Shown one piece after another: positions 3,014 to 61,022 of a stretch of DNA of 64,000 bases. The DNA is taken from assembly GCA_900552125.1 (NCBI GenBank), contig URYK01000009.1:1-64000 (forward strand), read 5' to 3'. This stretch comes from an uncultured Solobacterium sp. Its GTDB lineage: Bacteria; Bacillota_I; Bacilli_A; Erysipelotrichales; Erysipelotrichaceae. A program made the position numbers and the translations under genes. Each line of letters begins with the position of its first letter. Position 1 is the first letter of the stretch. The notes beneath the pieces are model-generated. The model ran no database searches. It saw only the letters and a program-made list of their open reading frames with translations, and had not been told where the DNA came from.

Positions 3014-3096
3014 TGGTGCGGGTGAAGGGACTCGAACCCCCACGGTTGCCCGCCAGATCCTAAGTCTGGTGCGTCTGCCAATTTCGCCACACCCGC
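3014..3096 (-). tRNA. tRNA-Leu (anticodon TAG)
   Basis: The acceptor stem GCGGGTG pairs with CACCCGC. The anticodon arm CCAGA-CTTAGGA-TCTGG presents TAG (reads CTA). The T arm has GGTTCGAGTCC and the long variable arm is typical of leucine tRNAs. CCA is encoded at 3014-3016. Confidence 0.97.
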
Positions 3097-3250
3097 ACAT
3101 TCAATTTACCAGTCATAAGTTATCTCACAACTGCCCTATTATTATAACATGAGATTCAAGAAAATCAATACTTTTTAGAAAATTTTTTATTTTTTTCTAT
3201 TACTTTTTATGGAACCCTTTTCATGATATACTATACGTTGAGGTGAGTTT

Positions 3251-4985: not shown

Positions 4986-5061
4986 TGGTGACGCGTACGG
5001 GATTCGAACCCGTGAATGCATGCGTGAAAGGCATGTGAGTTAACCGTTTCTCCAACGCGCC
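4986..5061 (-). tRNA. tRNA-Glu (anticodon TTC), copy 1
   Basis: The acceptor arms are GGCGCGT and ACGCGTC, the anticodon arm is CATGC-CTTTCAC-GCATG with TTC, the T loop has GGTTCGAATCC, and CCA is encoded. The 76 bases are identical to the plus-strand copy at 18674-18749. Confidence 0.97.
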
Positions 5062-18673: not shown

Positions 18674-18749
18674 GGCGCGTTGGAGAAACGGTTAACTCAC
18701 ATGCCTTTCACGCATGCATTCACGGGTTCGAATCCCGTACGCGTCACCA
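18674..18749 (+). tRNA. tRNA-Glu (anticodon TTC), copy 2
   Basis: Identical over 76 bases to the minus-strand copy at 4986-5061, with encoded CCA. It is followed by a terminator at 18762. Confidence 0.97.
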
Positions 18750-18885: not shown

Positions 18886-18961
18886 GCCTTAATAGCTCAG
18901 TAGGTAGAGCATCCGGCTGTTAACCGGCAGGTCACAGGTTCGAGTCCTGTTTAAGGCGCCA
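18886..18961 (+). tRNA. tRNA-Asn (anticodon GTT)
   Basis: The acceptor arms GCCTTAA and TTAAGGC pair, the anticodon loop is CTGTTAA, the D arm has AGCTCAG and the T arm GGTTCGAGTCC. CCA is encoded. Confidence 0.97.
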
Positions 18962-56027: not shown

Positions 56028-56606
56028 TTAGTATAGTGATACTATAATATCGACACATCGATCAATTCCTAATCTTCCACTATCTAGAGATACATCATAG
56101 TTTTTTGCATATCCCCATTTCATATCTGTATAAAAACGATGATAAGCAGCTCTTCTTTTATCTTTTTCTTTTATACGCTGTTCAGGTGTTTCCGTTCTTT
56201 CACCATAGATACTAACAATTCTATTAGCTCTAAATTCCGTACTTGCATGAATGAATACTTTTAGACAATCTGCCTTTTCTCTAAGAACGTAATCTGCACA
56301 TCTTCCTACAATTACACAGGATTCTTTCTGAGCTAAATCAATAATAACCTTCTGCTGTATTTCCCATAAGTAATCTTCATTCGTTAAACCGAAAGTCCGT
56401 GATGAAAAAGCAGTAGACATAAATTTTGAGAGTGATGATTCATCTGTGTCTTTTACATAATTCTCTGTAAATCCGCTTTCTTGCGCAATTTTTTGTATTA
56501 GCTCACTATCATAGCATGGTATATTTAATTTTTCAGCTACCATTTTTCCAATTGTTCGCCCCCCACTTCCAAATTCACGACTTATTGTTATGATTCGATT
56601 CCTCAT
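56028..56606 (-). CDS. Cytidylate-kinase-like family protein
   Basis: The 192 residues open with ITISREFGSGGRTIGKMVAEKL, a P-loop variant typical of this family, and contain VIVGRCADYVLREK and the basic lid KEKDKRRAAYHRFY. It resembles cytidylate kinase, but the true nucleotide is not known. The start ATG lies 1 base past the stop of the MATE gene, with AGGAGG inside that gene's end, so the two are one operon controlled by the MATE leader. Confidence 0.85.
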   Translation of the reverse strand: MRNRIITISREFGSGGRTIGKMVAEKLNIPCYDSELIQKIAQESGFTENYVKDTDESSLSKFMSTAFSSRTFGLTNEDYLWEIQQKVIIDLAQKESCVIVGRCADYVLREKADCLKVFIHASTEFRANRIVSIYGERTETPEQRIKEKDKRRAAYHRFYTDMKWGYAKNYDVSLDSGRLGIDRCVDIIVSLY

Positions 56607-56607
56607 G

Positions 56608-58008
56608 TTATTCCTCCTTTACACGTAACTCTTTATATGTACGATAAATCAAAAATAATGCGATTATAAAAGTCAAAATATCTGATACAGGCATAGAATA
56701 AAGTACCCCATCTAAACCAAGAAAAACTGGTAATAAAAGTGCAAAACCAACACCAAATACAACTTCACGAATCATGGAAAGTGCAGTAGAAGCAAATGCT
56801 TTTCCCATCGCCTGTAAGAAAATAAAACAGGCTTTATTTATACATGCAAAAATAATCATACATAAATAAATACGGAATGCTCGAATAGCAAATTCAGTAT
56901 AATAAGTGCTTTCATTTGCTGCGCCAAAAATGGAAATTAATTGCTGAGGGAAGAACTCAACAATTATAAACGCAGTTGCACCAACAATTCCTTCCGCAAT
57001 TAATAGATTAGTAAATAGTTTTTTAACACGTTCTTTTTTACCAGCCCCCATATTAAAGCCAACAATAGGAATACAGCCTGCCGCCATTCCAACAACAATC
57101 GATATAACAATTTGGAAGAATTTCATTACAATCCCAACTACAGCCATTGGTATCTGTGCATATTGTGGCTGACTAAAGATTTCATCCATAGCTCCATATT
57201 TCTTTAACATATTATTGATTGCGGCCATGACTGCAACTAAAGATATCTGAGAAAGAAAACTTGTTATTCCTAATATTAGTGTCCTACCACATATTTTTCT
57301 ATCCATATGAAAATCTGTTTTATGTGGTTTAATTATTTTCATATGCAAGATATACCAAATGGAAAGAAGTGCTGTTAGGATTTGACCAATCACTGTAGCT
57401 ACAGCAGCTCCCATCATTCCCCATCTAAAAACAAAAATAAATACAGGATCAAGAATAATATTTGTAATTGCACCAGCTAAAGTAGAGACCATCGCAAACT
57501 TTGGACTGCCATCAGCGCGAATAACAGGATTCATCGCCTGTCCAAACATATAAAATGGAATACCTAAACTAATATAAAAGAAATATTCTTTAGCATAATA
57601 AAATGTTTCTTCATTTACCGTTCCACCAAACATGGCAATAATCTGATTTTGGAAAACCAGATAAATTACCATTAAAACTAAACTGCTTACAACACTCATT
57701 ATAACAGCATTTCCTACACTTTTTTTCGCAACATCTATTTCCCCTTTTCCAAGACTAATACTGACAAATGCACAACATCCATCGCCAATCATAACCGCAA
57801 TAGCTAAAGCTACTACAGTAAGTGGAAATACTACCGTATTAGCCGCATTTCCATAAGACCCAAGATAACTAGCATTCGCAATAAACAGCTGATCTACGAT
57901 ATTATAAAGTGCACCAACCAAAAGAGAAATAATACAAGGAACTGCATACTGTATCATTAATTTTCCAATACGCTCTGTCCCTAAAAACTGATTTGAATTT
58001 TCCAACAT
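56608..58008 (-). CDS. MATE family efflux transporter (MepA-like)
   Basis: The ATG at 58008 has AGGAAGGTGG upstream (466 residues); the longer frame runs into the leader hairpin. Twelve membrane segments are likely. Family features: RIGKLMIQYAVPCIISLLVGALYNIVDQLF at the first segments, GDGCCAFVSISLGKGE, and in the second half MAAGCIPIVGFNMGAGK. It exports cationic drugs or toxic amines with Na+ or H+. The leader at 58023-58155 has two hairpin elements with a common loop, which points to ligand control. Confidence 0.92.
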   Translation of the reverse strand: MLENSNQFLGTERIGKLMIQYAVPCIISLLVGALYNIVDQLFIANASYLGSYGNAANTVVFPLTVVALAIAVMIGDGCCAFVSISLGKGEIDVAKKSVGNAVIMSVVSSLVLMVIYLVFQNQIIAMFGGTVNEETFYYAKEYFFYISLGIPFYMFGQAMNPVIRADGSPKFAMVSTLAGAITNIILDPVFIFVFRWGMMGAAVATVIGQILTALLSIWYILHMKIIKPHKTDFHMDRKICGRTLILGITSFLSQISLVAVMAAINNMLKKYGAMDEIFSQPQYAQIPMAVVGIVMKFFQIVISIVVGMAAGCIPIVGFNMGAGKKERVKKLFTNLLIAEGIVGATAFIIVEFFPQQLISIFGAANESTYYTEFAIRAFRIYLCMIIFACINKACFIFLQAMGKAFASTALSMIREVVFGVGFALLLPVFLGLDGVLYSMPVSDILTFIIALFLIYRTYKELRVKEE

Positions 58009-58022
58009 AACCACCTTCCTAT

Positions 58023-58074
58023 TCAAAATAAAACGTGTAGCCTCTCTGCTGGATTTACGCACACAGGCCACACG
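58023..58074 (-). promoter_or_regulatory. MATE leader element 2 (hairpin with conserved loop)
   Basis: On the minus strand CGTGTGGCC pairs with GGCTACACG over nine bases (one G-T). The loop holds TGCGTAAATCCAG, and TTTTATTTT follows just before the ribosome site. The loop core is the same as in element 1, about 75 bases upstream. It looks like a conditional terminator or aptamer. Confidence 0.6.
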
Positions 58075-58105
58075 CTTTTCATATATAACTACTTAATAAC
58101 CAAAT

Positions 58106-58153
58106 AAAAAAGTAGCCTACACGCAACTGGAATTACGCATAACGGCTACACGT
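58106..58153 (-). promoter_or_regulatory. MATE leader element 1 (terminator-like aptamer candidate)
   Basis: GTAGCC pairs with GGCTAC and ATGCG with TGCGT inside it; the loop holds TAATTCCAGT, and TTTTTT follows. It starts within about 10 bases of the predicted transcript start. A structured leader before a MATE gene fits the guanidine-IV (mepA) riboswitch setting, but I cannot confirm its consensus from memory. Confidence 0.55.
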
Positions 58154-58162
58154 TGTATCATT

Positions 58163-58191
58163 ATTATACTGAATTTTTCTAAATTTTTCAA
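58163..58191 (-). promoter_or_regulatory. Promoter of the MATE operon
   Basis: TTGAAA (58186-58191) and TATAAT (58163-58168) are 17 bases apart; the transcript should start near 58156. Confidence 0.7.
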
Positions 58192-58537
58192 AAGATTTTT
58201 TATAGAATAATATAGGAATTATTCTACATACTTACATTCTTTTCCAAAGCCATTCTATATCAGGAAATAGTAAATGTGCAATAAATCCTACAACCACAAC
58301 TATCTCAGATATAAAGTATACAGCTTATATGGTGAATTTAAATCATATTATTAAAATGCTGTTATAGTGCATAAACAAAGGCTTTTTATGCCTTGCGGAA
58401 TATAGTTTTCAGTTTTTTGCGCCTCCTTGTTAGATATCAGGTGCTTAGGCTCGCTAACACTCGTCTAACCGCCAAAGTAACTTAGCCACTACGTCGTTTC
58501 ATGAGATTTTTAGCCAATTTATTCTATAAACTGAAAT
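58192..58537. other. Gene-free stretch with an odd GC-rich block
   Basis: No gene is seen. Bases 58192-58375 are AT-rich. From about 58415 to 58505 the composition changes to about half G+C with no reading frame; on the minus strand it ends with a good ribosome site (AACAAGGAGG) but no start codon after it. It looks like a transferred or decayed fragment, or a structured RNA. Confidence 0.45.
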
Positions 58538-60690: not shown

Positions 60691-61022
60691 CTATTCCCTA
60701 TTATTTTCTCCCCAGACACACAGTTGATCTAAAACTTGCATCAAGGACTTGCCTCTATCACTTAAGCTATATTCAACTTTCGGTGGTATTTGAGGATACT
60801 CTTTTCTAATAATCAGATGATCTGCTTCCAGCTCCTTTAAATTGTTACTGAGTGTTTTATCTGTTACATTTTTCAAATAACGCTTCAATTGATTAAAACG
60901 CACAACTTCAAATTCCATCAGGCAATATAGAATAACCATTTTATGCTTACCTGATATAAGAGATAATGTGTAGCTAAATCCGGTTTCTTCAAAATTTGCA
61001 TTTTCAATATATTTTTTATCAT
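60691..61022 (-). pseudogene. HxlR-family regulator, frameshifted at the N terminus
   Basis: The body is a clear HxlR winged helix: MVILYCLMEFEVVRFNQLKRYL, T-D-K-T-L-S-N-N-L-K-E-L-E-A-D and IPPKVEYSLSDRG. Its first part, F-E-E-T-G-F-S-Y-T-L-S-L-I-S-G-K-H-K, is in frame upstream, but the only ATG with a ribosome site (61022, AGGAGAG) is one base out of frame at a run of six A (61012-61017). Seven A would give a normal protein of about 111 residues. HxlR proteins sense quinones or aldehydes. It diverges from the flavin reductase gene. Confidence 0.75.

Follow-up and report, generated by a model that had tools for sequence, protein, structure and literature searches.

A MATE exporter gene in the window (the whole 64,000-nt stretch of DNA analyzed here) is preceded by two tandem copies of a conserved RNA element that is probably an orphan riboswitch, with an aptamer embedded in a terminator and acting as an ON switch. 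Comparison with related loci established the conserved element, its two stems (P1 and P2), a competing terminator fold, and its placement between promoter and gene. Judged from these sequence comparisons, the element is a real and widespread regulatory RNA family.

Organization of the leader

A promoter scan of positions 57900-58300 ranked TTGAAA-17-TATAAT first among five promoter-like sites; it lies on the minus strand with 11 of 12 matches, as an earlier note on this DNA had proposed (Table 1). The note had also described two successive elements, each with a stem, a common core, and a T run, and all of these pieces are present on the minus strand: element 1 contains GTAGCC/GGCTAC followed by TTTTTT, and element 2 contains CGTGTGGCC/GGCTACACG followed by TTTTATTTT and AGGAAGGTGG-TT-ATG. 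Exact copies of the core TGCGTAANTCCAG lie at 58127-58139 and 58049-58061; a scan allowing up to three mismatches gave 42 sites, and the 40 besides these two carry two or three mismatches. The elements are spaced 78 nt apart, start to start. Element 1 begins at 58156, 6 nt past the -10 box; no other spacing is as frequent in relatives, and this start agrees with its proposed position at the transcript start, while element 2 was correctly placed just before the ribosome site, its U-rich tail being followed by AGGAAGGTGG and the MATE ATG.

Table 1. Features of the MATE leader and adjoining genes in the window
Feature	Position	Strand	Details and basis
Sigma-70-type promoter TTGAAA-17-TATAAT	58163..58191	(-)	TTGAAA 58191-58186, TATAAT 58168-58163; sequence
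Element 1 (A type), putative 35-nt aptamer	58122..58156	(-)	Model R3, E 7.5e-10; covariation in relatives
Terminator 1	58106..58149	(-)	Stem GUAGCC (58149) to GGCUAC (58112); U6 58111-58106; predicted fold -17.9 kcal/mol
Element 2 (B type), putative aptamer	58044..58078	(-)	Model R3, E 6.7e-8
Terminator 2	58025..58078	(-)	Element 2 5' arm + GGCUACACGUUUU; tail UUUUAUUUU 58033-58025; predicted fold -28.7 kcal/mol; class 'arm'
Ribosome binding site AGGAAGGTGG	58011..58020	(-)	Sequence
MATE family exporter, 466 aa	56608..58008	(-)	Pfam MatE, E 2.7e-32; NCBIfam matE subfamily above cutoff
Cytidylate kinase-like gene (Cytidylate_kin2)	56028..56606	(-)	Pfam PF13189, E 6.3e-54; next after MATE, same direction

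In element 1, P1 pairs 58155-58152 with 58127-58124 (4 bp) and P2 pairs 58146-58145 with 58138-58137, with an internal loop of GUGUA / GUAAUUCCA. In element 2, P1 retains just 2 bp (C-G, G-C), after which comes A-A, and P2 pairs 58068-58067 with 58060-58059. The fold energy of the leader stretch spanning both elements had a z of -4.0 against shuffles, none of 200 shuffles being as good. Model R3, which was built from 101 elements of other genomes and none from the window, recovered both copies at the E values in Table 1, so the tandem pair exceeds chance; the window copies had been inside the training sets of the earlier models R1 and R2. The MATE gene is presumably under the control of this leader, and the Cytidylate_kin2 gene is likely co-transcribed with it.

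A third model match in the window, at 60963-60988 (+) and adjoining an HxlR gene (E 0.003-0.007), was judged a false, chance match, having neither the GCGTAA core nor a stable fold. The window also holds four tRNA genes (3017-3096, 4989-5061, 18674-18746, and 18886-18958). The NUCCRG part of the core could pair with CUGGAU, a sequence close to the 3' terminus of 16S rRNA in Firmicutes; this complementarity is presumably due to chance.

Conserved fold and covariation

The leaders of relatives share the pattern CGNGYRGC, a short variable stretch, and GCGUAANUCCRG. Comparison of the core flanks revealed that the nucleotides directly before GNG pair with those directly after UCCR (P1) and that GC pairs with GC inside (P2), giving a common fold of stem P1, a near-invariant internal loop (G.G.. 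/.UAA..CC), the short stem P2, and a variable loop. P1 and P2 are nested, the fold suggests no pseudoknot, and the P1 pairing differs from the terminator pairing. The conserved 'loop' of the earlier note held as regards the core, which is kept; it is a loop only in the terminator and otherwise forms the 3' side of the internal loop closed by P1.

The fold was derived and followed through three alignments. A1 contained 88 of 106 pattern elements (92 of the 106 were used after repeat removal), and model R1, built from it, found diverged elements. A2 (119 distinct elements) and A3 (99 distinct) comprised matches at E <= 0.003 from selected sources (100 and 82, respectively), and most of A3 stems from other family samples. 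In the 283 distinct elements taken together, G6, G8, U26, A27, and C32 were invariant and A28 and C31 were kept in 282, although the invariance in A1 is not independent because the pattern that collected it demanded those letters, which the model searches for A2 and A3 favored without requiring. The stretch between the two P2 strands ranged from 2 to 14 nt. These invariant internal-loop letters bear out the claim that sequence outside the stems is kept in a conserved cis-acting RNA.

Counting sequences rather than independent events, 90.2% of stem cells were paired in A1, with a covariation of 0.235 (0.111 in shuffled alignments); the corresponding values were 91.8% and 0.409 in A2 (shuffled 0.165, slid controls 0.013-0.080) and 92.9% and 0.470 in A3 (shuffled 0.193, slid controls 0.011-0.085). 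A2 and A3 were aligned with models already carrying the P1/P2 structure; P1 adjoins a core almost free of gaps, however, so its register could hardly shift. Six of the 99 A3 elements recur in A1 or A2, and the remaining 93 were unused in deriving the fold. In these 93, columns 4-35 (93 paired, 51 expected by shuffling), 5-34 (93, 82), 3-36 (86, 79), 2-37 (65, 45), and 12-23 (91, 80) were each paired at counts that none of 500 shuffles matched, and column 11-24 was paired in 93 (92 expected), a count reached by 19 of 500 shuffles.

Over all 283 distinct elements, column 4-35 was paired in 281, as A-U, G-C, U-A, C-G, or G-U; within A2 alone it comprised 41 A-U, 35 G-C, 24 U-A, 3 C-G, and 14 G-U, with 2 unpaired. 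Column 5-34 was C-G in 247, U-G in 19, and U-A in 17, and column 12-23 was C-G in 256 and U-A in 20. Column 3-36 was paired in 248 (234 by shuffling), column 11-24 in 283, hardly above the 280 of shuffles, and column 1-38 showed no pairing beyond chance (98 paired, 104 shuffled). Two additional P2 pairs, R10-U26 and Y9-A27, were considered and set aside, U26 and A27 never varying. Related MATE leaders, which the earlier note had named as the place to look for covariation and core conservation, display both: P1 covaries, and the core letters are near-invariant.

Predicted terminators and proposed switch

Fold prediction assigned a terminator type to 193 elements: 154 were of the arm type, in which the terminator pairs the 5' arm of the element with a downstream copy; 33 were of the core type, in which the core pairs with its own complement and the 5' arm is free yet conserved; 2 were classed as other and 4 as none. 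P1 was predicted to compete with an intrinsic terminator in 187 of the 193, making the control of termination suggested in the earlier note probable, and both the arm and the core design are predicted to exclude the P1 fold. An arm or core overlap with dG below -15 was found for 182 of 193 elements; the same held for 48 of 965 random positions and, with the 3' strand shuffled, for 63 of 579 controls. When the energy cut was omitted, 364 of the 579 shuffled controls were also labeled 'arm' or 'core', so the labels alone discriminate poorly and the energy matters. Strand swapping between elements proved a poor control because element arms are alike (498 of 579 swaps were still arm or core), and it was replaced by the random-position and shuffled-strand controls.

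In the window, the terminator of element 1 was one of the 2 classed as 'other' rather than 'arm' or 'core' because its stem starts at GUAGCC; it takes up the core together with the 5' P2 strand and so is predicted to exclude the aptamer fold. A simple consensus terminator scan listed neither terminator 1 nor terminator 2 in the window leader. The predicted fold of the full leader pairs the 3' part of terminator 1 with the ribosome site. At another locus (L158), two elements at 3081-3116 and 3023-3057 (-) lie nearly back to back, the first having no terminator of its own by the rule used.

The proposed P1/P2 fold of the window copies was predicted at -1.8 and -0.4 kcal/mol, and for the isolated 35 nt another fold was predicted to be better (-4.8 and -3.6 kcal/mol). 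Given this competition between P1 and the terminator, transcription should stop in the unbound leader; the weakness of the P1 fold, the better alternative folds, and the exclusion of P1 by the terminators together suggest that termination is the default and that read-through needs a bound factor.

We propose that the first ~35 nt of the nascent RNA would fold into P1, the conserved internal loop, and P2, a fold weak by itself. With no factor bound, the 5' arm or the core would pair with the RNA just made, a U-tailed terminator hairpin would form, and transcription would stop. A ligand holding the internal loop would keep P1, block the terminator, and allow the polymerase to reach the exporter gene. 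We infer from this scheme that the leaders terminate transcription in the cell, that control is in the ON direction, that a small molecule binds directly, and that both copies share a ligand. The tandem, two-stage arrangement anticipated for the window agrees with two elements, each with its own predicted terminator, before the MATE gene: these may act as two complete switches in series, with less leak and a steeper response if both bind the same ligand. With two terminator designs built around one aptamer, the family provides a natural experiment for telling aptamer letters from terminator letters.

Distribution among relatives and genomes

A genome scan with the window MATE protein yielded 218 relatives, of which the best 80 loci were kept (75-88% identity; many titled Lachnospiraceae, Oscillospiraceae, or Clostridia); all 80 are relatives of this one protein. 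Within 520 nt of the MATE start, a strict pattern found one element in 47 of the 80 loci, two in 26, and none in 7. Model R2 detected an element in five of the seven pattern-negative loci (L027, L029, L049, L057, and L059), farther upstream in L027 and weak in L029 (E 0.003). An element was present in 78 of the best 80 MATE relatives; for the two misses, no more than 225 and 108 nt of sequence is present upstream. In 12 of the 26 two-element loci the pair flanks a small gene, gene X (at least 318 nt start to start), and in 14 the elements lie side by side (69-204 nt), the arrangement seen in the window. Of 339 related elements, 184 were accompanied by a promoter whose -10 box lay 3-12 nt before the element, versus 25 of 1695 random positions, and 6 nt was the commonest spacing from -10 box to element (91 of the 184).

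Searches of genome samples at E <= 0.01 per genome with strict filters, the counts of which may run low or include chance matches, found the element in 96 of 299 genomes from the family of G001 (L022, Fusibacillus kribbianus), 45 of 150 from that of G699 (L023, Oscillibacter valericigenes), 29 of 119 from that of G006 (L018, Ruminococcus MAG), and 7 of 99 from that of G002 (L020, Eubacterium pyruvativorans). At the level of the phylum, it was found in 11 of 398 genomes for G001 and in 3 of 201, two of them doubtful, for G697 (L067, Flexilinea MAG; Chloroflexota sample); L242 and L243 from the latter sample resemble chance matches in coding sequence. Matching genomes held one to four copies, with four in G014, G118, and G250, and single copies occurred in three MAGs labeled Chloroflexi or Flexilinea (L064, L067, and L072), labels that may be wrong. 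A plasmid search with the leader returned two weak records covering only the stretch before the elements.

Downstream genes

From 245 fetched matches we built 204 clusters and compared the nearby genes with 12 query proteins, several of them from these loci (G014:C31, G042:C25, G019:C28, G102, G116, the pair in G716:C16, and G961:C65:48507 were left out of the fetched matches). A MATE gene lay within 1.1 kb in 130 clusters, a class that may be over-represented because the best 80 loci are relatives of one MATE protein and the models were grown from MATE leaders; the other clusters included CarD-like genes (24, with the call for L115 doubtful because its sequence is masked), gene X (6), ABC exporters (3), hybrid histidine kinases (2), HxlR (1), and Cytidylate_kin2 (1). 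The remaining 37 matched none of the 12 queries; the MFS and DUF2798 cases are among them, as are the chance matches L202, L207, L242, and L243. Pfam searches confirmed CarD_TRCF_RID in L149, L185, L118, and L217, ABC in L206 and L225, MFS_1 in L269, L282, and L246, Cytidylate_kin2 in L262, and DUF2798 in L295, with L239 just under the cutoff for DUF2798 and L255 giving no match to it.

The CarD-like genes with an element in the leader include those of L149, L168, L185, L186, L187, L193, and L217, and P2 is GUU/AAC in L168, L185, L186, L187, and L193. Directly behind MATE, a Cytidylate_kin2-type gene was present in 19 of the 76 related loci that have enough sequence; L262 has it as the first gene past the element, and in L150 nothing but a short MATE-like stretch separates the two. 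Gene X encodes a 79-aa protein of unassigned function and stands directly before MATE in 14 of the best 80 of 218 relatives (L001, L005, L018-L020, L024, L026, L032, L037, L040, L042, L065, L075, and L080). In L111, L132, L180, L224, L233, and L083, the element precedes gene X and no MATE gene was found within 1.1 kb. Gene X had 3357 homologues at E <= 0.001, and no Pfam domain was found among the 120 matches listed.

The element is a conserved, structured 5' leader with phylogenetic support upstream of several unrelated genes, as is generally expected of a riboswitch. The exporter targets suggest that the ligand is either a toxic compound or something that signals the stress from one. It is possible, though we advance it tentatively, that the element represents a natural riboswitch class of gut Clostridia for toxic compounds or the stress they cause, using a single or tandem 35-nt aptamer before MATE, MFS, ABC, DUF2798, and CarD-like targets. 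If the riboswitch reading is right, the element would be an unlisted class that has a very small aptamer and is common in certain gut bacterial families, and its ligand would reveal what the exporters and CarD-like genes respond to. The question of which signal turns on broad exporters through RNA becomes directly testable.

Alternative explanations

The main rival to a riboswitch is a trans-acting, signal-activated protein of the LicT/BglG or ANTAR style that clamps the P1-loop-P2 hairpin and thereby blocks the terminator. LicT/BglG-type ribonucleic antiterminators are imperfect hairpins that overlap and exclude a terminator, and LicT/BglG or ANTAR proteins recognize imperfect ~30-nt hairpins that have a conserved internal loop and overlap a terminator. 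The element has the form of such a target, a protein partner would fit the same comparative data, and a genome may carry several elements, as in the three genomes with four copies. However, none of the genes identified is a sugar PTS gene, in contrast to the LicT/BglG type, and no regulator gene was identified or seen traveling with the element, the one candidate tested being gene X, which was rejected as a universal partner (found in 5 of 30 genomes with the element and weakly, at E 6e-4, in 1 of 30 without it). The copy number of one to four, the patchy distribution (96 of 299), and the single copies in MAGs labeled Chloroflexi or Flexilinea favor a self-contained module, and we regard the protein as unlikely, though a serious competitor.

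A cis-acting RNA that contacts RNA polymerase in the manner of put, or that senses slowed transcription, appears very improbable. Many elements do start at the expected transcript start, and the CarD-like genes behind 24 of 204 clusters give a hint in this direction, known CarD relatives being RNA polymerase binders; nevertheless, some elements are remote from the start (12 of the 26 two-element loci have one between gene X and MATE) or stand second in tandem pairs, and most have their own predicted terminator, so that a processive effect is not needed. Leader-peptide attenuation by the ribosome, or plain terminators or DNA repeats with no regulatory role, appears very unlikely: terminator folds are present and GUGUAG in the arm can be read as start-stop, but elements beginning near the transcript start leave little space for a ribosome site, the variable stretch of 2-14 nt breaks the reading frame, the CGAGUAGC variants have no GUG, and neither the invariant loop letters nor the P1 covariation would be retained by plain terminators.

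Comparison with known systems

The earlier note had favored guanidine-IV (mepA), with a new class as the fallback should that family fail. An Rfam 15 search of the elements produced no family at threshold and no guanidine family, the presence of a guanidine-IV model in Rfam 15 being unconfirmed. At loose thresholds, window positions 57700-58500 gave no match, and the elements of nine other loci gave two microRNA-precursor matches (L018 and L282), both far below threshold. According to PMC9788692, guanidine-IV and its variant Gd4v are built from two hairpins that a pseudoknot connects, with the 3' hairpin serving as the terminator, and MATE genes lie downstream of both; together with PMC7736828, this source indicates a likeness to the window element in terminator-based control (proposed to be of the ON type here), the MATE gene downstream, and occurrence in gut bacteria.

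The architecture differs, since the window element is a single P1-loop-P2 unit of ~35 nt, here in tandem, rather than a pair of pseudoknotted hairpins. Guanidine-IV/Gd4v identity was rejected on the nested P1/P2, the 35-nt unit, and the promoter lying 3-12 nt ahead of 184 of the 339 elements; the strict pattern within 520 nt found a single unit before 47 of 80 MATE genes, and one 35-nt unit seems complete by itself. Moreover, Table 3 of PMC9481103 lists guanidine-IV as not found in tandem, and neither sugE nor the Gd4v transaminase was among the downstream genes identified (37 of 204 clusters have no assignment). A tandem guanidine-IV or Gd4v is on these grounds extremely improbable, and the fallback of a new class is supported. 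The whole words MATE, mepA, and CarD are absent from the main texts of PMC8632094 and PMC11109978, and the element family was not met in the literature searched, supplements and most subscription papers lying outside its scope.

In its tandem form, the window leader resembles the pseudo-cooperative tandem riboswitches described in PMC9481103, in which two complete switches with their own expression platforms control one gene; the table there covers validated ligand classes, whereas a common ligand for the window copies is our supposition.

The closest mechanism is that of the HMP-PP riboswitch (thiS motif), which, according to PMC6478431, has its aptamer inside an intrinsic terminator and gives read-through on ligand binding. 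Both systems embed the aptamer in a terminator, have loop letters unusual for a terminator, and possess a distinct, competing P1, and the HMP-PP riboswitch, by the same source, also occurs in tandem with another switch (TPP). For the element, P1 and the terminator are mutually exclusive by fold prediction in 187 of 193 cases, 182 of them with dG below -15. The differences are that HMP-PP genes are thiamin-related whereas those of the element are exporters and CarD-like, that a pseudoknot is possible in thiS, where P2 remains as the terminator tip, whereas none is suggested for the element, and that, unlike in thiS, the core of the element is itself a terminator arm in 33 of 193 cases. No thiamin gene was among the downstream genes identified, 37 of the 204 clusters being without assignment. 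The element is best read as working like the HMP-PP riboswitch, yet standing outside that family.
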